Below, in pieces: positions 1,781 to 63,013 of a DNA stretch of 64,000 nt. The stretch spans positions 8,191,001-8,255,000 of the forward strand of contig NC_045148.1 in assembly GCF_008831285.2 (NCBI RefSeq). The letters run 5' to 3'. Every line of letters begins with the position of its first letter. Within the stretch, counting starts at the first letter, position 1. The notes below the pieces were generated by a model that did no database searches, was not told the origin of the DNA, and saw only the letters and a list, made by a program, of their open reading frames with translations. The translations under genes and the position numbers were made by a program. The DNA comes from Nymphaea colorata. Its lineage: Eukaryota > Streptophyta > Magnoliopsida > Nymphaeales > Nymphaeaceae.

Positions 1781-2056
1781 TTAGTTCTGTCCCCAGCAGC
1801 TGACGTACATCACCGTCCGCAGCGACTCGTCGGCCTGCCTTCGCCTCTCCTCGGCCTTTCCGTTCGCCGGGACCGAGCCCCGCTCGGAGCCAGGCGCGGA
1901 AGAGCCGAATCTAGGCGAGCCCAGGGCGCACAAGGAGGACCTAACGGACCCCAGATCCATGGACCGGACGGTGGGGTTCCATTTAAGGCCGGGATCCGCG
2001 TGGCCGTGCGACACAGCCACCCCGGCGGCCACGAATATCCTCCCCATGTAGCTCAT
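1781..2056 (-). CDS. Divergent WIP-family (DUF3774) small protein
   Basis: A 91-residue intronless protein of the plant wound/hypoxia-responsive WIP family (DUF3774). Family members are small, and several Arabidopsis ones (At4g10265, At4g10270) are induced by wounding and low oxygen; the biochemical role is not established. The start is set at the methionine of MSYMGRIFVAAGVAV, which aligns with the first residue of the other copies. The C-terminus (RRRQADESLRTVMYVSCWGQN region, about residues 72-91) matches the family signature. The middle is Gly/Ser/Arg-rich and lacks the KDQGIRFNS block of the main array. The gene is GC-rich, unlike the AT-rich cluster copies, so it is an older subfamily member. 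A TATA box lies about 120 bp upstream of the ATG. The open frame runs 25 codons further upstream, but nothing there resembles the family. Confidence 0.85.
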   Translation of the reverse strand: MSYMGRIFVAAGVAVSHGHADPGLKWNPTVRSMDLGSVRSSLCALGSPRFGSSAPGSERGSVPANGKAEERRRQADESLRTVMYVSCWGQN

Positions 2057-2174: not shown

Positions 2175-2236
2175 TCTTATAGACGAAACAGGTGGTGGTT
2201 TCCCGGAAACCATCTTTTGGGAAACCTGGCGGTTTG
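2175..2236 (-). promoter_or_regulatory. TATA box and TGGTTT inverted repeat for the 1.8-kb WIP gene
   Basis: On the minus strand a TATA box (CTATAAGA, 2175-2182) precedes the gene. Fourteen bases further upstream is TGGTTT-CCCGG-AAACCA (2196-2212), an inverted pair of the anaerobic-response GT-motif core. A second pair AAACC-TGGC-GGTTT follows at about 2223-2236. The same arrangement recurs in the other WIP genes of the window. Function is inferred from the motif, not shown. Confidence 0.6.
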
Positions 2237-30920: not shown

Positions 30921-31006
30921 TGGTTTTCCAAAACCACTAAACCATTCAAGAGCAAAACTACATGCTGGATCGACCCCACTTCCATCTTCCCTGCAACTAT
31001 TATAAG
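30921..31006 (+). promoter_or_regulatory. Promoter of the 31.1-kb WIP gene
   Basis: TGGTTTTCCAAAACCA at 30921-30936 is an inverted pair of the TGGTTT/AAACCA core, broken only at the two central bases. Another AAACCA lies at 30940-30945. A TATA box (TATAAG) is at 31001-31006, about 117 bp before the ATG. Confidence 0.6.
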
Positions 31007-31122: not shown

Positions 31123-31356
31123 ATGAGTTGTATGAACAGAGCTATGATATCTGCAGGCATGGCTGTAGCTCTCGATGGGCTGCAAGATCAAGGCGCCAAG
31201 CTCAATTCCTTCATGTCAGATAAAGGCCAAAACTCGATGAGGGAGCACGTCAACTCTCCTTCTTTCCCCAAGAGAAAGGTGGGAGCAGACAGAAGCAAGC
31301 AGGCAGAGGAATCCCTACGGACGGTGATGTTCCTGAGCTGCTGGGGAACAAATTAA
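31123..31356 (+). CDS. WIP-family (DUF3774) small protein, short form
   Basis: A 77-residue intronless protein, the shortest in the window. The N-terminus is MSCMNRAMISAGMAVALDGL followed by QDQGAKLNS, aligning with RAVIAAG..AVQGLKDQGIRFNS. The Ser-rich linker is missing; instead there is a short Pro/Ser/Lys stretch. The C-terminus (RSKQAEESLRTVMFLSCWGTN) keeps the family signature, with WGTN for WGPN. The start is the methionine after KKKIR, by alignment; an upstream in-frame ATG 38 codons earlier would lie only a few bases past the TATA box. It is the leftmost member of the main array. Likely wound or low-oxygen responsive by family and promoter motif (inference). Confidence 0.88.
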   Translation: MSCMNRAMISAGMAVALDGLQDQGAKLNSFMSDKGQNSMREHVNSPSFPKRKVGADRSKQAEESLRTVMFLSCWGTN

Positions 31357-35252: not shown

Positions 35253-35592
35253 CTTTAATCTACTATTTGTGTAGTCCTGTGCCCAACTTAAGCTGCCTAC
35301 TTTGTTTTGAAACATGGGTTCTGTTATTAAACCACAACACATATAATCCGCCAGTTGTTTTGAGTATTACACATCTGCAATAAGTCGAGAATTTGGATTC
35401 CCCACCAACATTCCAAGAGAAGATTGCTATCTGTAGAGAGTGAGAGCAAGGGAAAAGACAAAAGACAACTTGGACGTAGACGTGTTCAGTGTATTTGAGA
35501 CAAGGGAAAAGAACACCAGCTAGCATCTTCATCCAACTTGCCACCAAAACCATGGGAAAGAACAGGTTAGCTAGCGTGTGGTATTACAGTAC

Positions 35593-35660
35593 GGAAACCT
35601 GGTTTTCCATGATTCCTTCCTGCTCTCTTGGGGGCCACATAGCCTCTTTATTCCTATAAG
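35593..35660 (+). promoter_or_regulatory. Promoter of the 35.8-kb WIP gene
   Basis: GGAAACC-T-GGTTTTCC (35593-35608) is an inverted repeat that pairs the AAACC and GGTTT cores in the opposite order to the other copies. The TATA box TATAAG is at 35655-35660. The preceding phrase 'gtggtattacagtacgg' resembles the modules at 42.8, 56.2 and 61.1 kb. Confidence 0.55.
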
Positions 35661-35817: not shown

Positions 35818-36108
35818 ATGAGTTACATGAACAGAGCAGTGATAACGGCAGGAGTGACTGCCACAGTCCAAGGTTTGAAGGATCAAGGCATCAGGTTCAA
35901 CTCAGTGTTGAGAGTCCTCCATCAGATCGCCCGGAGGAACTATGCTTCTTCTACGCTATTGAACAGAGTATCAACGGCCACCGTTGCTTCTTCTTCTTCT
36001 TCTTCTTCTTCTTCTTTGTTGCAGAGGAAGTTGGGAGAAGAGAGGAGTAAACAAGAGGAGGAATCCCTGAGGAAAGTCATGTACTTGAGTTGCTGGGGAC
36101 CCAATTGA
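35818..36108 (+). CDS. WIP-family (DUF3774) small protein
   Basis: A 96-residue intronless protein: MSYMNRAVITAGVTATVQGL, then KDQGIRFNSVLRVLHQIARR, then a long poly-Ser linker (about residues 57-66), then RKLGEERSKQEEESLRK and the signature VMYLSCWGPN. The linker is encoded by a TTC/TCT trinucleotide run (about 35987-36015), which explains the extra length over the usual 93. The ATG is preceded by GTGAAG, and no upstream in-frame ATG fits better. The closest relative is the next plus-strand copy at 41.8 kb. The cellular role is unknown. The two ends are strongly conserved and the middle is free to vary. Confidence 0.92.
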   Translation: MSYMNRAVITAGVTATVQGLKDQGIRFNSVLRVLHQIARRNYASSTLLNRVSTATVASSSSSSSSSLLQRKLGEERSKQEEESLRKVMYLSCWGPN

Positions 36109-40401: not shown

Positions 40402-40468
40402 TTTATACAGAAGATAAATCTGCGGCATCCCACGAGGACAACCGTTGCTTGTGAAGAACCTGGTTTCT
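40402..40468 (-). promoter_or_regulatory. Promoter of the 40.0-kb WIP gene
   Basis: On the minus strand a TATA box (GTATAAAT, core at 40402-40407) is about 110 bp from the ATG. AGAACC-T-GGTTTCT (40456-40468) is an inverted pair of the AACC/GGTT core in the order seen at 35.6 kb. Confidence 0.45.
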
Positions 40469-41477: not shown

Positions 41478-41633
41478 AAACCATGGAAGACGAAACCAGA
41501 AGCCCTCTTCGAGGGTGTCTTATTACCACCAAAACCACGGGAAACGAAGGTCCCACCTGAGCGTGTGGTGTTACCATTATCGTATGAAATCCAGCTTTCT
41601 TGGGGATCCATGGCTTTTGCTTGCTATAAAAAT
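41478..41633 (+). promoter_or_regulatory. Promoter of the 41.8-kb WIP gene
   Basis: Three AAACCA cores (41478-41483, 41493-41498, 41532-41537) lie upstream of a TATA box (CTATAAAAAT, 41624-41633). The close inverted pair found in the other promoters is not present here. Confidence 0.5.
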
Positions 41634-41794: not shown

Positions 41795-42076
41795 ATGAGT
41801 TACAGGAACAGAGCAGTGATAGCAGCTGGAGTGATCGCGGCAGTCCAAGGTCTGAAGGATCAGGGCATCAGATTCAACTCGGTGGTGAGATTCCTCCATC
41901 AGAATGCCAGTAAGAACTACGCTTCTTCTGCGAAATTGAAGAGAGTATCGTCGTCCACCATTGATTCCTCGTCTTCCTCTTCTCTGTTGCAGAGGAGAGT
42001 GGGAGATGAGAGGAGGAAAGAGGCAGAGGAGTCCCTAAGAAAAGTCATGTACTTGAGTTGCTGGGGACCCAATTGA
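41795..42076 (+). CDS. WIP-family (DUF3774) small protein
   Basis: A 93-residue intronless protein: MSYRNRAVIAAGVIAAVQGL, KDQGIRFNSVVRFLHQNASK, a Ser-rich linker (TIDSSSSSSLLQ, about 55-66), then RRVGDERRKEAEESLRK and VMYLSCWGPN. It is very close to the 35.8-kb copy at both ends and to the minus-strand array copies in the C-terminal half. The second methionine of the MSxMN motif is replaced by Arg. The start codon is the one shared by all family members. The TATA box lies about 165 bp upstream. Likely soluble: no signal peptide or membrane helix is visible. Confidence 0.92.
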   Translation: MSYRNRAVIAAGVIAAVQGLKDQGIRFNSVVRFLHQNASKNYASSAKLKRVSSSTIDSSSSSSLLQRRVGDERRKEAEESLRKVMYLSCWGPN

Positions 42077-42799: not shown

Positions 42800-42930
42800 T
42801 GCCTTCAGCATGTGGTATTACTGTAGGGAAAACCAGGTTCTCAATAAAATACTGCTGGCTCCGAGAGGTTTTCACAAATCTTATGCAAATTGTGGATGCT
42901 AATTCTCTTAAAACCTGAAATGAAGTACTA
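42800..42930 (+). promoter_or_regulatory. Orphan WIP-type promoter module
   Basis: 'ggtattactgtagggaaaaccaggttc' is followed by a phrase ending 'aattgtggatgctaattctc'. That phrase is repeated at 43167-43210 in front of the WIP pseudogene. No open frame of the family follows directly; a purine-rich (GAAA)n tract comes instead. It looks like a duplicated promoter whose gene is gone. Confidence 0.45.
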
Positions 42931-43166: not shown

Positions 43167-43448
43167 GTCACGAATCTCCTATAAATTGTAGATGCTAATT
43201 CTCTTAAGTTCTGCAAACAAGGCAGAGAGAGAACGAAGTAGTGTTAGCAGCAGGCAAGAGTGTGGCAGTTGTTAGCTGATGGATGAAGGAACCAGATTCA
43301 ACTAAAAGAAGTTTTGTTTCTTCTCACAGGCGGCCATTGAAACATTTACTTCTTCTTTGTTGCATAGGAAGTGGGAGAAGAGCGCAGTAAAGGGGAAAAA
43401 GGAGTCGTTCAAGAAAGTCATCTTTTTGAGTTCTTGGAGACGAACTAA
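43167..43448 (+). pseudogene. WIP-family pseudogene
   Basis: A degraded copy of the family on the plus strand. At 43235-43300, 'gtagtgttagcagcaggcaag' and 'accagattcaact' match the AVIAAG and IRFNS coding stretches of intact copies. At 43345-43448, 'tttgttgcataggaagtgggagaagag', 'aagaaagtcatctttttgagttcttgg' and 'acgaactaa' match LLQRRVG, RKVMYLSCWG and the end of the gene. The start codon is lost, frames are shifted between the two halves, and the CWGP core has changed to SWRR. A TATA-like 'cctataaatt' at about 43177 and the promoter phrase are still visible. Confidence 0.75.
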
Positions 43449-44463: not shown

Positions 44464-44745
44464 TCAATTGGGACCCCAGCAACTCAAGTACATGACTTTC
44501 CTCAGAGACTCCTCTGCTTCTTTACTCCTCTCATCTCCCACTCTCCTCTGCAACAGAGAAGATGAAGGAGAAGAATCGGTGGTGGACGACGACACTCTCA
44601 TCAACTGCGTGGAAGAAGCATAATTCCTCCTGCCGTTCTGATGGAGGACTCTCATCACCGAGTTGAATCTGATGCCCTGATCCTTCAAACCTTGAACTGC
44701 GGCAGTCACTCCTGCTGCTATCACCGCTCTGTTCATGGAACTCAT
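44464..44745 (-). CDS. WIP-family (DUF3774) small protein
   Basis: 93 residues and intronless. Order: MSSMNRAVIAAGVTAAVQGL (1-20), KDQGIRFNS (21-29), MRVLHQNGRRNYASS (31-45), Ser-rich linker (about 52-63), LLQRRVGDERSKEAEESLRK (64-83) and VMYLSCWGPN (84-93). The start is the ATG after VVK; thirteen more in-frame codons upstream have no counterpart in other copies. It pairs with the 49.9-kb copy: both have MRV(L/I)HQNGRRN and TQLMRVSSST, so the two are a duplicate pair. This is the first of seven co-directional minus-strand genes. Confidence 0.93.
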   Translation of the reverse strand: MSSMNRAVIAAGVTAAVQGLKDQGIRFNSVMRVLHQNGRRNYASSTQLMRVSSSTTDSSPSSSLLQRRVGDERSKEAEESLRKVMYLSCWGPN

Positions 44746-44842: not shown

Positions 44843-44945
44843 ATTTATAAAAGGGATGATCATTGATCAGTGGTGGCCCCCAAAATAGAGTGGGATGGTT
44901 TGAGAAAACCACTTGTGGTATCAGACAGCTTTCTCCTGTGGTTTT
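44843..44945 (-). promoter_or_regulatory. Promoter of the 44.5-kb WIP gene
   Basis: The TATA box (TATAAAT on the minus strand) is at 44843-44849. TGGTTT-GAGA-AAACCA is at 44896-44911, 46 bp beyond it. GAAAACCAC (44904-44912) and GTGGTTTT (44938-44945) form the outer inverted repeat. Confidence 0.65.
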
Positions 44946-49863: not shown

Positions 49864-50145
49864 TCAATTGGGTCCCCAGCAACTCAAGTACATGACTTTC
49901 CTCAGAGACTCCTCTGCTTCTTTACTCCTCTCGTCTCCCACTCTTCTCTGCAACAGAGAAGAGGAAGGAGAGGAATCGATGGTGGACGACGACACTCTCA
50001 TCAATTGCGTGGAAGAAGCATAATTCCTCCTGCCATTCTGATGGATGACTCTCATCACCGAGTTGAATCTGATGCCCTGATCCTTCAAACCTTGAACCGC
50101 TGCAGCCACCCCTGCTGCTATAACCGCTCTGTTCATGTAGCTCAT
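49864..50145 (-). CDS. WIP-family (DUF3774) small protein
   Basis: 93 residues and intronless: MSYMNRAVIAAGVAAAVQGL, KDQGIRFNSVMRVIHQNGRR, NYASSTQLMRVSSSTIDSSPSSS linker, then RRVGDERSKEAEESLRKVMYLSCWGPN. It is almost identical to the 44.5-kb copy from residue 14 on, with MSYM at the N-terminus instead of MSSM. A longer reading of 49 more codons upstream has no family counterpart and is rejected. The 3' flank (about 49800-49862) shares the 'acaagatttatacagg'-type phrase found after the other minus-strand copies. Confidence 0.93.
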   Translation of the reverse strand: MSYMNRAVIAAGVAAAVQGLKDQGIRFNSVMRVIHQNGRRNYASSTQLMRVSSSTIDSSPSSSLLQRRVGDERSKEAEESLRKVMYLSCWGPN

Positions 50146-50330: not shown

Positions 50331-50421
50331 ATTTATAAAGCGAATCGATGCTGGCCCTCAAAATATTGGATGGTTTTGCAAAACCACTGGCTCTACCAGA
50401 CACCAGTCTCCCGTGGTTTTC
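50331..50421 (-). promoter_or_regulatory. Promoter of the 49.9-kb WIP gene
   Basis: TATAAAT lies at 50331-50337. The perfect 16-bp palindrome TGGTTTTGCAAAACCA is at 50371-50386. A GTGGTTTTC block at 50413-50421 completes the outer inverted repeat with AAAACCAC. Confidence 0.7.
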
Positions 50422-53569: not shown

Positions 53570-53851
53570 TCAATTGGGTCCCCAGCAGCTCAAGTACATG
53601 ACTTTTCTTAGGGACTCCTCAGCCTCTTTACTCCTCTCGTCTCCCACCCTCCTCTGCAACAAAGAAGAGGAAGGAGAAGAATCTATGGTGGACGACGATA
53701 CTCTTTTGACTTGCGTAGAAGAAGCATAATTCCTCCTGGCGTTCTGATGGAGAACTCTGAACACTGAGTTGAATCTGATGCCCTGATCCTTCAGTCCTTG
53801 GACTGCTGCAACCATTCCTGCAGCTATCACTGCTTTGTTCATGGAACTCAT
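53570..53851 (-). CDS. WIP-family (DUF3774) small protein
   Basis: 93 residues and intronless: MSSMNKAVIAAGMVAAVQGL, KDQGIRFNSVFRVLHQNARR, NYASSTQVKRVSSST, IDSSPSSS linker, then RRVGDERSKEAEESLRKVMYLSCWGPN. The NKAV and SVFRV residues group it with the 55.3- and 60.2-kb copies. The start is the ATG after FGK; ten in-frame codons upstream are unconserved. The 3' flank holds 'tacaagatattatacagg', repeated after the other copies on this side. It is the first of the closely packed group of five. Confidence 0.93.
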   Translation of the reverse strand: MSSMNKAVIAAGMVAAVQGLKDQGIRFNSVFRVLHQNARRNYASSTQVKRVSSSTIDSSPSSSLLQRRVGDERSKEAEESLRKVMYLSCWGPN

Positions 53852-53967: not shown

Positions 53968-54048
53968 ATTTATAATGGTTCTCCCCATCGATCTTGGATG
54001 GTTTTGCAAAACCAGGGACCGTGAAAACCACTCACTCCCGTGGTTTTC
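53968..54048 (-). promoter_or_regulatory. Promoter of the 53.6-kb WIP gene
   Basis: TATAAAT is at 53968-53974. The perfect palindrome TGGTTTTGCAAAACCA is at 53999-54014, 24 bp from the TATA box. A second perfect 9-bp inverted repeat GAAAACCAC (54023-54031) and GTGGTTTTC (54040-54048) has an 8-bp spacer. This is the clearest example of the composite promoter in the window. Confidence 0.75.
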
Positions 54049-55295: not shown

Positions 55296-55577
55296 TCAAT
55301 TGGGTCCCCAGCAACTCAAGTACATGACTTTTCTTAGGGACTCCTCTGACTCTTTACTCCTCTCATCTCCCACTCTGCCCTGAAACAAAGAAGAGGAAGG
55401 AGAGGAATCTATGGTGGAGGACGATACTCTCTTCAACTGCGTAGAAGAAGCATAATTCCGCCTGGCGTTCTGATGGAGAACTCTGAACACTGAGTTGAAT
55501 CTGATGCCTTGATCCTTCAGTCCTTGGACAGCTGCAATGGCTCCTGCTGCTATAACTGCTTTGTTCATGGAACTCAT
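55296..55577 (-). CDS. WIP-family (DUF3774) small protein
   Basis: 93 residues and intronless: MSSMNKAVIAAGAIAAVQGL, KDQGIRFNSVFRVLHQNARR, then NYASSTQLKRVSSST, IDSSPSSSLFQGRVGDERSKESEESLRK and VMYLSCWGPN. Two residue changes, LFQ for LLQ and SKESEE for SKEAEE, are shared only with the 60.2-kb copy. They mark these two as duplicates. The start is by alignment; 24 further in-frame codons upstream are not conserved. Confidence 0.93.
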   Translation of the reverse strand: MSSMNKAVIAAGAIAAVQGLKDQGIRFNSVFRVLHQNARRNYASSTQLKRVSSSTIDSSPSSSLFQGRVGDERSKESEESLRKVMYLSCWGPN

Positions 55578-55691: not shown

Positions 55692-55791
55692 ATTTATAAT
55701 CGTTTCCCCAAGAGTGTTGGATGGTTTTGGGAAACCAGGGGACTATGAAAACCACAGGCCAATTATTAAGGACTTTTCCCCCATGGTTTTC
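55692..55791 (-). promoter_or_regulatory. Promoter of the 55.3-kb WIP gene
   Basis: TATAAAT is at 55692-55698. TGGTTTTGGGAAACCA (55722-55737) is 23 bp away. The outer pair is GAAAACCAC (55747-55755) and ATGGTTTTC (55783-55791). Confidence 0.7.
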
Positions 55792-56100
55792 TCCATATTG
55801 TGGGTAGTTTTTGTCCTCTATGCAAGTGGACAGTTTCAGTAAATGTAAATTATATCTGAGCATCGACTGTTTCATAATTAAATATTAACCATCTCAGATC
55901 GGAATCTATAGTCACTATCTCATGACATAAATTGCTCATGGTGTTATCAACTTAATGCCCATCTGCACTGTACAGTGTTAAGAAAGAAACAAGATTTGTA
56001 TAGAAAGAAGTGATAAGTTTCACCTACCACATTGTGCAAGGGGTGAGTGATCCAGGTTGGATGTGGGGACATAAACCATCGAAGCTTCAAGAGAGCATAG

Positions 56101-56400
56101 CCTTATAATAATGTCTGATACCACACATGCACCTGGTTGGAAGCTTCTTACCCTTTCTCTGTGCTCATAAACAAGGGGTCTGAAAAGATTTTTGCCTTCA
56201 GCCCGTGGGCACTGTGCATTACTGCAGGGAAACCAGGTTCTTTCTTGCATTACTGCAGGGAAACCAGGTTCTTTCATAAGATACTCCTAACTTTGTGGGG
56301 TTGCCACAGTTCTTTCATCCCTATACCTTCCGGGTGCTCCTTCTCTTTCCCCTTTAAAATCCGACACCAAGGAAAGAGCAATTCCTACTTGTGATTAATA
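56101..56400 (+). promoter_or_regulatory. Orphan promoter-like module with 31-bp duplication
   Basis: It contains 'attactgcagggaaaccaggttc' twice in tandem (31-bp unit from 56216 and 56247), then 'ataagatactcctaactttgtgggg' and 'cgacaccaaggaaagagcaatt'. The same module, without the inner duplication, recurs at 61.1 kb, and related pieces are at 42.8 and 35.6 kb. No gene of the family follows on the plus strand. Confidence 0.45.
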
Positions 56401-57752
56401 AAAAACACCTGCTAATAATTAACTGAAAATAATCTTTTTAAAACATTGTTGTTCTTAGATGTTATCCATGCGTTTGTCAATAATTTCTCCATAAGTGTTT
56501 CTTTGTTCAAACAAAATCAGAAAAAATCTGTAAATGAAATGCTTCACTTTGTTCGAACGTTACGTGTTCTGCCGAATTTTTCAATTCTTCATTTCCGTGA
56601 GCTGCAATTTATGCAGGTACTTTTGTTGTTTTTTTAACCAATAAAATGTGAGTAGTTTTTGTCATTTAAGCTTGTGCGCAGGCAATAAAATCAAGTCATA
56701 TGGGATCTTTTCCCTAGAGCGGAGCATTTCAAGACTGATGTCTGGATACTAACCAAGGGCCAGCCGGGAAAAAATCGAAATGAGTAAATTAAGATAATTT
56801 TTAGCTGCAAATCTGATGACAGCTCTGTTAGACCCCAATCTGATTTAGCTGCTGATATCATAAGAACCCAAACTTAACTTCAATTGAAAGTGTAATAACT
56901 TGTTGATTATTTTGTTTAAATTGATATATTGCTAATTTTATTGTTTTTGATATATGCATGAGTTGGATATTATTGTTGCTGGAAACTGCCATTTTAGCAT
57001 GCCTTCCTCAATACAATCTGCATGTAAATCGTCTTGATTTTAGACTAGGATTTTTCATTCATTAGTTTCATCTATATAACCTTGATCGGATGGGCAACGA
57101 CAGTTCTTGGATTCTCTATCATGTAATTGATCTTTTAACGCTTTGCCTCCCGTGATTTGATTTCGACTCTTATTATCTCTCTCGCTGGAAAAGCAATATC
57201 ATTTATAATATAAGGATTAAACAACACACCTACATCATAAAATTAAAAGTTTGGGTGTATTTTTGCTTTTTGATAGGCTTTTTTGGTTTTTAGAGAGGGT
57301 TGAATGAGCTTAAGGAATGGGGGTCTCAGAGGAAACCAAAAGATTGCCTGCTTGTGTTGAATATTTGCCTGTGTATTGCTCATTAATCATGTCTCAAGGA
57401 AGGTTGTACATACTTTCTCATTCATTTGTCTGATTAATAAATGGAAGAGCCCAAATTCCAACAGTCATTCTTTTAGAAAAGAAATTACCACCTTTTTAGC
57501 TTACCAATCTAGGTAAATTGTTCATGATAGACAGTTTATGAGAGTCACACATGAAAATCAACCATCAAATGGCAACAGGAAGAATTAAAAGAAAAATGAA
57601 TTTCAGAAAAATGAAAGAATGAACAACGCCTGATTACTGCAAAACTTGACGTATTTGTATTTTCATGTTTGTTTTATGATCACAAGATATTTTACAGGGA
57701 GGCTGCCATAATATGGCATCCAGGAGAACATTCTCCTGTTCTCACATTTCCT
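56401..57752. other. Intergenic, no gene seen
   Basis: AT-rich, alignable by eye with 61.3-62.4 kb (for example 'gttatccatgcgtttgtcaa', 'gatatattgctaattttattg'). It forms part of the duplicated block. Confidence 0.45.
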
Positions 57753-58028
57753 TCAATTGGGTCCCCAGCAACTCAAGTACATGACTTTTCTTAGAGACTC
57801 CTCTGCTTCTTTACTCCTCCCATCTCCTACTCCACTCTGCAACAAAGAAGAGGAATCGATGGTGGACGACGACGATACTCTCTTCAACTGCGTAGAAGAA
57901 GCACAATTCCTCCTGACGTTCTGATGGAGGACTCTCATGACCGAGTTGAATCTGATGCCTTGGTCCTTCAACCCTTGGACTGCCGCAGTCGCTCCTGCTG
58001 CTATCACTGCTCTGTTAATGGAACTCAT
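57753..58028 (-). CDS. WIP-family (DUF3774) small protein
   Basis: 91 residues and intronless: MSSINRAVIAAGATAAVQGL, KDQGIRFNSVMRVLHQNVRR, NCASSTQLKRVSSSS, a shortened linker TIDSSSLLQSGVGDGRSKEAEE, then SLRKVMYLSCWGPN. Odd residues are NCAS for NYAS and DGRSK for DERSK. HQNVRR is shared in part with the 62.5-kb copy (QQNVRR), as is the GAT(A/E)AVQ phrase, so the two are duplicates. The start is by alignment, ten codons inside the longest frame. Confidence 0.92.
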   Translation of the reverse strand: MSSINRAVIAAGATAAVQGLKDQGIRFNSVMRVLHQNVRRNCASSTQLKRVSSSSTIDSSSLLQSGVGDGRSKEAEESLRKVMYLSCWGPN

Positions 58029-58181: not shown

Positions 58182-58289
58182 ATTTATAATGCGTCCCTCC
58201 AATAATATTGGATGGTTTTGAGAAACAAACCAGGGGACTGTGAAAACCACCGATCCAATTCTTTAATGCATTTCGCTCCCCTGGTTTTC
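58182..58289 (-). promoter_or_regulatory. Promoter of the 57.8-kb WIP gene
   Basis: TATAAAT is at 58182-58188. The palindrome is stretched by a 4-bp insertion (TGGTTTTGAGAAACAAACCA, 58213-58232), but its TATA-proximal edge keeps the 24-bp spacing. The outer pair is GAAAACCAC (58242-58250) and CTGGTTTTC (58281-58289). Confidence 0.6.
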
Positions 58290-60240: not shown

Positions 60241-60513
60241 TCAATTGGGTCCCCAGCAACTCAAGTACATGACTTTTCTTAAAGACTCCTCTGACTCTTT
60301 ACTCCTCTCATCTCCCACTCTGCTCTGAAACAAAGAAGAGGAATCAATGGAAGACGACGATATTCTCTTCAATTGCGTAGAAGAAGCGTAATTCCTACTG
60401 GCGTTCTGATGGAGAACTCTGAACACTGAGTTGAATCTGGTGCCCTTATCCTTCAGTCCCTGGACTGCTGCAATCGCTCCTGCTGCTATCACTGCTTTGT
60501 TCATGGAACTCAT
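60241..60513 (-). CDS. WIP-family (DUF3774) small protein
   Basis: 90 residues and intronless: MSSMNKAVIAAGAIAAVQGL, KDKGTRFNSVFRVLHQNASR, NYASSTQLKRISSSS, then IDSSSLFQSRVGDERSKESEE and SLRKVMYLSCWGPN. KDKGTR replaces the otherwise near-invariant KDQGIR. LFQ and SKESEE are shared with the 55.3-kb copy. The frame is open for 82 more codons upstream, but this passes through the TATA box and promoter palindrome, so the ATG at 60513 is taken. Confidence 0.92.
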   Translation of the reverse strand: MSSMNKAVIAAGAIAAVQGLKDKGTRFNSVFRVLHQNASRNYASSTQLKRISSSSIDSSSLFQSRVGDERSKESEESLRKVMYLSCWGPN

Positions 60514-60665: not shown

Positions 60666-60766
60666 ATTTATAATCGTTTCCCCAAGAGTGTTGGATGGTT
60701 TTGCGAAACCAGGGGACTATGAAAACCACGGTCCCAACTTTTCTGGACATCTCTCCCATGGTTTTC
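60666..60766 (-). promoter_or_regulatory. Promoter of the 60.2-kb WIP gene
   Basis: TATAAAT is at 60666-60672. TGGTTTTGCGAAACCA (60696-60711) follows after 23 bp. The outer pair is GAAAACCAC (60721-60729) and ATGGTTTTC (60758-60766). Confidence 0.7.
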
Positions 60767-61059
60767 TCTATCTTGTGGGTGTTTTTTGTCCTCTATGCAA
60801 GTGGACAGCTTCAGTTTATGTAAATTATATCTGAACATCGACTGCTTCATAATTAAATATTAACCATCACAGATCCGAATCTATAGTAACTCTCATTTTT
60901 TCCCATCTGCACTGTGCAGTATTAAGAAAGAAACAAGATTTGTATAGGAAGAAGTGATAAGTTCCACCTGCTACATATGTGCAAGTGGTGAGTGATCCAG
61001 GTTGGATGTGGGGACAAAAACCATAGAAGCCTCGAGGTAGCATGAGGAACATTTCCATA

Positions 61060-61320
61060 TAATAATGTCTGATAACACACGTAGACCTGGTTGAACCCGT
61101 CTTACCCTTTCTTTATACTCAGAAACAATGGGACAGAACAGTTTTTTGCCTCCAGCCTGTGGGCATTACTGCAGGGAAACCACGTTGTTCCATAAGATAC
61201 TCCTAGCTTTGTGGGGACGCCCCAGTTACTTTCGTCCCTATGCATTCCAGGTGCTCATTCTCTTTGCCCTCAAAAATCCGACACCAAGGAAAGAGCAATT
61301 AAGAAACACCTGTTCCTGCT
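61060..61320 (+). promoter_or_regulatory. Orphan promoter-like module
   Basis: It has 'attactgcagggaaaccacg', 'ataagatactcctagctttgtgggg' and 'cgacaccaaggaaagagcaatt' in the same order as at 56.1-56.4 kb. It has no downstream gene. Confidence 0.45.
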
Positions 61321-62478
61321 TCGTCAATAAAAAACAATTAACTGAAAACAGCCTTTTGAAAACATTGTTGTTCCCAGATGTTATCCATTCGTTTGTCAAG
61401 AACTTCTCTAAAGTTTTTGTTTGTTGAAACGAAACCAGAGAAGAACTCTATGATTCTCATTTTGTTCAGAAACAAGAATTTTGATTCTAAAATTTCTGCA
61501 ATTCCTGTGAATCAAACGCCCCCTACTGAACTTTCAATTTTCATTTTCATGAACTGCAAATTATGCATGTGATTTTGCTGCTCTTTTTAGCCAATAAAAT
61601 GTGAGTAATTCTCAATAAATTCAAGTCATCAGGATCTTTTCCCAAGAGCACCTCAATTCAAAATGTAAAAACAAATTTATTATTTATTAAAATTGATATA
61701 TAGCTAATTTTATTGTTTTTTATAACATGCATGAATTTGACATTACTTCTGCTAGAACCTGCCATTGTAGCATGCTATAGATCGTCTTGATGTTAAGCTA
61801 GGAATTTTTCATTCACTAATTTCGTCTATATAACTTTGATTGCATGATCAAGGACAACCCTTGGATTGTCTATCATGTAACTGAACTTTACCGATCATGC
61901 TTCTTCACCATCCTTGACTTATATCTATTTTACCATCTCTCTCTGTAAAAGCAATATCATTTATAATATATGAATTAAACTCCACACATACATCATAACA
62001 TCAAACATGTTTTGGTCTTTGATATGGTTTTTTGGTTTTTCAAGAGGGTTGACATAGATGGGCTGCTTGTGTATTGATCATTTTTGCCTGTGTACTGCTC
62101 ATTAATCACGTCTCCGAGAAGGTTGAACAAACTTTCTCATTCCATTTGTCTAACCCCAGCATCATTCTTTGAGAAAAAATACCACACTTAGCTTACAAAT
62201 CTAGATGAACTGCACGTCCAGAATCTCGAAAGAACATTGAGACCCTGCTCATGGTAGACAGTTTATGACAGTCGCACATGATAAACAACAGTCAAATGGT
62301 AACGGGCCAAGAGAAGTGAAAAGAGAATTTCAGAAAAATGAAAGAACGAACAGGGCCTGATTACAGCAAAACTTGATGTATATGTATTTTCATGTTTTGT
62401 TTCAGATCACAAGATATTTACAGGAAGGCTGCCATAATATGGCTTCCAGGACAACATTCTCCTGTTTTAGCATTTTCT
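61321..62478. other. Intergenic, no gene seen
   Basis: Copy of the 56.4-57.7 kb stretch within the duplicated block. The right end (about 62370-62460) is the 3' flank of the next gene and shares 'gcaaaacttgatgtatatgt' with the other copies. Confidence 0.45.
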
Positions 62479-62760
62479 TCAATTGGGTCCCCAGCAACTC
62501 AAGTACATCACTTTTCTTAGAGACTCCTCTGCCTCTTTACTCCTCTCATCTCCCACTCCCCTCTGCAACAAAGAAGAGGAAGGAGAGGAATCGATGGCGG
62601 ACGATGATACTCTCTTCAACTGCGTAGAAGAAGCATAATTCCTCCTGACGTTCTGTTGGAGGACTCTTATGACCGAGTTGAATCTGATGCCCTGATCCTT
62701 CAACCCCTGGACTGCCTCAGTCGCCCCTGCTGCTATCACTGCTCGGTTAACGGAACTCAT
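62479..62760 (-). CDS. WIP-family (DUF3774) small protein
   Basis: 93 residues and intronless: MSSVNRAVIAAGATEAVQGL, KDQGIRFNSVIRVLQQNVRR, NYASSTQLKRVSSSA, IDSSPSSSLLQRGVGDERSKEAEE, then SLRKVMYLSCWGPN. QQNVRR and GATEAVQ link it to the 57.8-kb copy. The start is by alignment; ten additional upstream codons (MTSEQRRFSR) resemble the MTSQQRGFSK leader of the 57.8-kb copy, which only reflects recent duplication of the 5' leader. It is the rightmost member of the array in this window. Confidence 0.92.
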   Translation of the reverse strand: MSSVNRAVIAAGATEAVQGLKDQGIRFNSVIRVLQQNVRRNYASSTQLKRVSSSAIDSSPSSSLLQRGVGDERSKEAEESLRKVMYLSCWGPN

Positions 62761-62911: not shown

Positions 62912-63013
62912 ATTTATAATCCGCTCCCCAATAATATTGGATGGTATTGAGAAACCGGGGGACTGTGAAACCACTGATCGAATTCTTTAATGGGCGTGGT
63001 TCCCATGGTTTTC
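62912..63013 (-). promoter_or_regulatory. Promoter of the 62.5-kb WIP gene, degenerate palindrome
   Basis: TATAAAT is at 62912-62918. The expected palindrome position (62942-62957) reads TGGTATTGAGAAACCG, with both half-sites altered. The outer pair persists as GAAACCAC (62967-62974) and ATGGTTTTC (63005-63013). Confidence 0.55.

Follow-up and report, generated by a model that had tools for sequence, protein, structure and literature searches.

In many promoters of wound-induced protein (WIP) genes of Nymphaea colorata, the TATA box is preceded by two putative hypoxia half-sites, (C/T)GGTTT and AAACC(A/G), in facing orientation. What we observed here is the sequence of this palindrome, its statistics, its footprint, its recurrence in related promoters and its likeness to the hypoxia-responsive promoter element (HRPE), the published site of ERF-VII factors. 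We consider it probable that WIP genes possess a composite low-oxygen promoter element with this palindrome as its core, which is predicted to be bound by ERF-VII factors and to mediate induction by hypoxia.

The window, i.e. the whole stretch of DNA analysed, spans 64 kb (C11:8191001-8255000) of the 408-Mb assembly and contains 13 loci matched by the profile PF12609 (DUF3774, wound-induced protein), here named W1, W1b and W2-W12. Ten of them were submitted to a first Pfam scan and all 13 were matched in a genome-wide profile search of the assembly. The latter gave 26 matches grouped in two clusters: 17 at 8.19-8.30 Mb of C11 (the 13 of the window plus X1-X4 outside it) and nine at 33.05-33.10 Mb of C1. 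No WIP relatives were found in the prokaryote and viral collections searched. Synonymous divergence (Ks) is 0.22-0.50 among W8-W12 and 0.22-0.60 among W6-W12. In the same region, the intergenic segments 56100-57250 and 61050-62200 are 73-74% alike over 445 and 381 bp and are probably part of a tandem duplication at this end of the cluster.

A previous sequence-only reading of this DNA had listed eight inverted TGGTTT/AAACCA pairs. All eight were recovered at the positions given and precede WIP start codons, with gaps of 5, 4, 4, 4, 4, 4, 8 and 4 bases in order of position (Table 1). As it also reported, two are perfect palindromes and the last gene of a run of five, W12, carries a degenerate version. 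No further pair with a gap of up to 12 bases occurs in the 64-kb window, and simulated 64-kb sequences contained on average 0.20 (100 first-order Markov simulations, maximum 1) or 0.32 such pairs (100 third-order simulations, maximum 2). The two facing half-sites usually start 10-11 bp apart, about one turn of DNA, this distance being 12 bp in the C1-cluster locus C1f and 14 bp in W10 and in C1a, another C1 locus. Five of the 13 loci of the window are devoid of an exact pair (W1b, W3, W4, W5 and W12); in the promoters of the first four no pair was found, W3 displaying a single arm (TGGTTTTCC at 35600).

Table 1. Positions in the window of WIP loci and of promoter features discussed in the text
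Feature	Position	Strand	Remark
W1 gene	1781-2056	-	
Inverted pair TGGTTTCCCGGAAACCA, W1 promoter	2196..2212	-	gap 5
Inverted pair TGGTTTTCCAAAACCA, W2 promoter	30921..30936	+	same 16-mer upstream of C1b, on another contig
W2 gene	31123-31356	+	
Upstream HRPE-like block, W3	35546..35557	-	2 mismatches
W3 gene	35818-36108	+	
HRPE-like block, W5	41531..41542	-	2 mismatches; without palindrome
W5 gene	41795-42076	+	
W5b, broken WIP remnant	43204-43437	+	in-frame stop; between W5 and W6
W6 gene	44464-44745	-	
Inverted pair, W6 promoter	44896..44911	-	
W7 gene	49864-50145	-	
Palindrome TGGTTTTGCAAAACCA, W7 promoter	50371..50386	-	
HRPE-like GCCAGTGGTTTT, W7	50380..50391	-	1 mismatch; distal arm
W8 coding sequence, DUF3774/WIP	53570..53851	-	93 aa; Pfam PF12609
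TATA box (TATAAA), W8	53969..53974	-	24 bp from palindrome edge
Palindrome TGGTTTTGCAAAACCA, W8 promoter	53999..54014	-	
HRPE-like GTCCCTGGTTTT, W8	54008..54019	-	1 mismatch to GCCVCYGGTTTY; overlaps TATA-distal arm
Upstream HRPE-like block TCCCGTGGTTTT, W8	54036..54047	+	2 mismatches; sense AAAACCACGGGA; common to W7
W9 gene	55296-55577	-	
Inverted pair, W9 promoter	55722..55737	-	
HRPE-like TCCCCTGGTTTC, W9	55731-55742		1 mismatch
W10 gene	57753-58028	-	
Inverted pair, W10 promoter	58213..58232	-	gap 8
HRPE-like TCCCCTGGTTTG, W10	58226-58237		2 mismatches; distal arm
W11 gene	60241-60513	-	
Inverted pair, W11 promoter	60696..60711	-	
HRPE-like TCCCCTGGTTTC, W11	60705-60716		1 mismatch
W12 gene	62479-62760	-	
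Degenerate pair CGGTTTCTCAATACCA, W12 promoter	62942..62957	-	
HRPE-like TCCCCCGGTTTC, W12	62951-62962		1 mismatch; distal arm

Other modules were seen in these promoters. A second recurrent promoter-like module, approximately TGTGGTATTACTGTAGGGAAACCAGGTT, is present on the + strand at 42811, 56212, 56243 and 61159, and in W3 at 35577 and W4 at 40462; it is proximal in W3 and W4, lies about 390 bp upstream of W5b and is intergenic near W9 and W11. Perhaps these modules are promoters of lost WIP copies. The W10 promoter contains a second dyad, TCCAATATTATTGGA (58198-58212, - strand), directly TATA-ward of the palindrome, to which a looser CCAA...TTGG in W9, W11 and W12 can be likened.

Half-sites are concentrated in these promoters. 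When 300 bp were taken upstream of 14 WIP loci, W5b included, these 4,200 bases contained 38 of the 136 AAACCA/TGGTTT half-sites of the window, a 5.5-fold enrichment. All nine promoter groups possess at least one half-site, against 39% of background tiles, and the W5b remnant, which is outside the nine groups, has none in its 300 bp. Pairing exceeds this clustering: when half-site numbers were kept, positions and orientations were randomised and W6-W12 were counted as one group, facing pairs with starts 10-11 bp apart (three of seven groups) had a probability of about 1e-5, and those with starts 9-14 bp apart a probability of 1.4e-4. In a scan of all 4,096 possible six-base arms with gaps of 3-6 across the nine promoter groups, TGGTTT recurred in four groups and every other arm in at most one; in 200 draws of nine background tiles, the best arm recurred in one tile in 180 draws, in two in 18 and in three in 2.

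At the level of the genome the picture is different for the bare sequence. The pattern TGGTTTN4AAACCA occurs at 150 sites, against 138 for a control pattern read backwards, i.e. the 16-mer is not enriched over this control. The exact palindrome TGGTTTTGCAAAACCA is found at three places of the assembly: W7, W8 and a position on C12 (C12:14281168, L019), where no WIP-like open reading frame was recognised by eye in its 3 kb. This lack of general enrichment, together with the youth of W8-W12 and their common TATA spacing, would be expected if the pairs were a functionless leftover of tandem duplication, the eight cases then representing few events. We regard such an origin as very improbable. Seven gap-4 sites fall in WIP promoters, six of them in the window (W2, W6, W7, W8, W9 and W11) and one, that of C1b, among the genome-wide sites listed, as compared with about 0.005 expected by chance in 13 kb (26 promoters of 500 bp, by arithmetic from the genome-wide count). 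Moreover, deep paralogues whose flanks agree at chance level carry the pair, and conservation of the arms greatly exceeds that of the spacer and of the other columns.

This footprint is clear in the alignment of W6-W12, in which the twelve arm columns average 6.83 identical bases of seven, as compared with 4.75 for the four-base spacer and 4.75 for other columns; the TCCAA adjoining the arms averages 6.8 of 7. In BLAST comparisons of 300 bp per promoter, the W7 and W8 promoters match only at the palindrome block (21 bp) and at an upstream HRPE-like block (14 bp), both 100% identical. Between W2 and either W8 or W9 the match is limited to the palindrome (17 bp, 94%); between W2 and W7 it comprises the palindrome and a single 13-bp stretch closer to the ATG. 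The W1 pair is not tied to the others by BLAST, the sole match (12 bp, to the W9 palindrome) being just upstream of it. The 20 bp of flank around the W1 and W2 pairs have 3-9 of 20 bases in common with the flanks in W6, W7, W8 and W10. The sequence-only reading had invoked selection beyond recent duplication, and this view is borne out by the restriction of the W2 match with W8 and W9 to the palindrome, by the poorly agreeing flanks of W1 and W2 and by the presence of pairs at the C1 loci related to them. We conclude that the arrangement is real, probably selected and typical of the WIP gene family. That it would act as a DNA secondary structure (cruciform) and not through protein recognition is scarcely credible. 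Although the dyad is perfect over 16 bp in W7 and W8, complementarity of the spacer is not kept in W9, W10 and W11, and the arms recur as one particular sequence, not as stems in general; being upstream of the TATA box, the dyad is also not expected in RNA.

A constant distance between the palindrome and the TATA box had likewise been claimed. For the five genes at 53.6-62.5 kb (W8-W12) this is correct, the palindrome edge being 24, 23, 24, 23 and 23 bp from TATAA. As a rule, on the other hand, it fails: the corresponding values are 14 bp for W1, 64 bp for W2, 46 bp for W6 and 33 bp for W7, and these other four measured promoters rule out a set TATA spacing in general. A spacing of 23-24 bp is seen only in W8-W12, so that the set distance is a property of this single young tandem group (Ks 0.22-0.50).

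As an external test we used paralogues in the same genome, namely the 13 WIP loci outside the window (nine on C1 and X1-X4). A strict pair is present in two of them, C1f (TGGTTTTCCAGAAAACCA) and C1b (where it precedes a TATA-like box and is about 463 bp from the ATG), and with the relaxed form YGGTTT/AAACCR the count is 5/13, C1a (CGGTTTCTCGAAACAAACCG) and C1g/C1h (TGGTTTTTTCRAAACCG) being added. Left out of this count is C1c, whose sole pair (CGGTTTTTTTAAAACCG) is of the relaxed form and is situated far from the TATA box, some 468 bp upstream. In the remaining seven loci (C1d, C1e, C1i and X1-X4) no pair was found, X3 exhibiting what looks like a decayed one. The MSLR-type branch, which consists of five loci (W1b, C1c, C1d, C1i and X4), is devoid of strict pairs. 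The protein tree groups W1 with C1a (support 99/98) and W2 with C1g/C1h (96/92), with a long-branch warning for C1a, C1b, C1e, W2 and W4, and it leaves C1f and C1b without a resolved place. Ks is 1.11 for W1-C1a and 0.91 for W2-C1g/C1h, and ranges from 0.91 to 2.34 when W3-C1f is included. C1g and C1h (C1:33076559, L012, and C1:33082941, L013) are themselves near-identical WIP copies (Ks 0.05). We call C1f a relative of W3 because of the promoter blocks that they share. Only CACCAAAACCATGGGAA and AACCTGGTTTTCCA are common to the two promoters, i.e. the upstream HRPE-like block and the single arm of W3; C1f has the full pair, and the comparison suggests that W3 lost its second arm.

Compared with W1, both outer arm positions are changed in C1a such that self-complementarity is kept (CGGTTT/AAACCG). 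This single case, together with the almost invariant arms and neighbouring TCCAA around a variable spacer and with the very name of a wound-induced family, speaks for a different symmetric dimeric factor, for instance linked to wounding or to a hormone, that would read the dyad; the low-oxygen link would then be incidental. We find this rather improbable, since these promoters contain further copies of the half-site, together with HRPE-like blocks, at other positions.

The HRPE, bound by ERF-VII factors of the RAP2.2/RAP2.12 type, has been given as GCCVCYGGTTTY (PMC11660084, PMC10400637) and also as AAACCA(G/C)(G/C)(G/C)GC (PMC9748296). The TATA-distal arm with its flank departs from GCCVCYGGTTTY by a single mismatch in W7, W8, W9, W11, W12 and C1b, by two in W10 and C1f, and by three or four in W1, W2, W6, C1a, C1g and C1h. 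The TATA-proximal arm shows four or five mismatches in W6-W12. In W1, W2, W6 and C1a neither arm comes closer than three mismatches; in C1f, C1g, C1h and W10 the better-matching arm departs by two. An exact 12/12 HRPE match does not occur in the 64-kb window. Sites with at most one mismatch number 10 in the window (2.0 in simulations), seven of them in the WIP promoters that make up 6.6% of it; with at most two mismatches there are 62 (23.7 in simulations), 22 of which are in WIP promoters. A further HRPE-like block (one or two mismatches) lies upstream in W3, W5 and W7-W12. Most of the GC flank of the HRPE is present on the TATA-distal copy of W7-W12, and the extra copy begins 32-55 bp further upstream. 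This likeness explains why the distal flank is GC-rich, and also the ‘degenerate’ CGGTTT of W12, the distal arm of which still fits the HRPE because the motif allows CGGTTT. The earlier assignment to low-oxygen elements through a GT-motif core stands as regards the type and the TGGTTT core, and has to be amended in that the sequence is closer to the HRPE than to the GT-motif alone.

A reading that remains nearer to that assignment is that of a paired GT-motif, whose arms would be bound by R2R3-MYB (MYB2-like) or trihelix factors as in the classic anaerobic response element, the HRPE likeness being secondary. Its basis is that HRPE flanks are missing from both arms in W1, W2 and W6 and from the proximal arm throughout W6-W12. 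Published data are in line with it: AACCA is described as a MYB-bound GT-motif, MYB2 binding that of ADH1 (PMC3240646, PMC3387268), and a rice submergence study ascribes CAAAACCA and AAACCACA to R2R3-MYB (PMC8008075). We nevertheless hold it unlikely, since the distal-arm flank is HRPE-like in W7-W12 and C1b, the YGGTTT variation of W12 and C1a fits the Y position of the HRPE, and MYB2 is reported to be weakly or not induced by hypoxia (PMC3240646).

The anaerobic response element of ADH1 combines a GT-motif (TGGTTT) with a GC-motif (GCCCC), as single or dispersed motifs. WIP promoters share with it the half-site, which is the GT-motif core, and a TTGGGG/CCCCAA block, looser than the GC-motif, is enriched in them (6/9 groups). 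By eye, GGGGGCC (GGCCCCC), a possible GC-motif, stands beside the pair in W6 and the half pair in W3. WIP promoters differ from the anaerobic response element by displaying a facing pair. With the HRPE they share the single-mismatch distal arm and flank of the six promoters named above, the several HRPE-like copies per promoter and a gene family that is hypoxia-marked in other plants; they differ by a second, facing half-site, which is separated by about one helical turn and in most cases has no GC flank, and by the lack of a 12/12 match in the window.

Is the pair a general hypoxia element? We turned to a contrast set made of about 5 kb upstream of eight PCO-family loci and one globin, with first exons partly located and promoters therefore approximate. 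Five of the eight PCO-family stretches contain an HRPE with at most one mismatch, exact in L050 and L053 and with one mismatch in L052, L054 and L055; in L050 and L052 it precedes by about 500 bp a frame resembling, by eye, a PCO N-terminus. A tight facing pair (gap below 10) is found in none of the eight, and the stretch upstream of the single globin match has neither HRPE nor tight pair. HRPEs are thus present close to genes in which they are expected, unaccompanied by a tight pair, and the pair as a general hypoxia element is not supported in this genome.

An HRPE with a facing AAACC was counted at eight sites genome-wide, against one for the forward and none for the reverse control. All eight were listed for open reading frames within about 1.5 kb, and those on C10 and C6 were read further. 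On C10 (L066:81-141), an exact HRPE is included in a looser facing GGTTT/AAACC pair whose AAACCA edge is 36 bp from TATAAA; the gene has three exons with GT-AG splice sites and encodes a HIG1 domain (PF04588, 42 bits for a cut-off of 22.4). The HIG1-domain family includes hypoxia-responsive plant genes. Near the C6 site no clear gene was found. On contig C4, two copies of an insertion (L058 and L059, about 1501-1521) carry a facing pair, GCCCCTGGTTTTTCAAAAACC, that includes an exact HRPE, and the insertion frames look, by reading, reverse-transcriptase-like and zinc-knuckle-like.

In Arabidopsis, oil palm and zombi pea, WIP/wound-responsive genes are described as belonging to the core hypoxia genes or as being induced by waterlogging (PMC10448820, PMC6724125, PMC13418359), and one table in PMC9317734 lists AT4G10265 and AT4G10270 with ADH1, PCO2 and LBD41. 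In excerpts of a recent study (2026), Arabidopsis hypoxia promoters contain clustered and overlapping HRPEs on either strand, a higher density going with a faster response, from which its authors infer that HRPE arrangement matters (PMC12994171). WIP promoters similarly possess several HRPE-like sites per promoter on either strand; the difference is that the excerpts describe density, overlap and strand, and no fixed facing pair. In the literature searched, available in part, we found no description of a facing HRPE/GT-motif pair or of an ERF-VII spacing-orientation rule; the primary HRPE work (Gasch et al. 2016), outside that search, may describe arrangements. The half-site, or switch element, is already known and what would be new is its facing arrangement, short of a new kind of element. 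The pair would most likely represent a paired ERF-VII hypoxia element, that is, a new arrangement of a known element with a putative function.

According to the model that we propose from the sequence, when oxygen falls, ERF-VII factors of the RAP2.2/RAP2.12 type would escape destruction by the PCO/N-degron route and would bind the HRPE arm. A second ERF-VII or a GT-motif (MYB-type) partner could sit on the facing arm, which would be exposed on the same helical face, and this paired occupancy may result in strong or fast induction of WIP genes under hypoxia. A more demanding version, that of a dedicated hypoxia dyad on which two ERF-VII would bind cooperatively to facing HRPE half-sites about one turn apart, selected in the WIP family, looser in the HIG1-domain gene and setting a fast or switch-like induction, is possible and should be taken as tentative.

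The same plant offers an internal comparison between paired WIP promoters, pair-less WIP promoters and PCO-family genes with unpaired HRPEs. If confirmed, the palindrome would provide a natural compact element for hypoxia reporters and would add a grammar, of orientation and spacing, to the ERF-VII/HRPE code.
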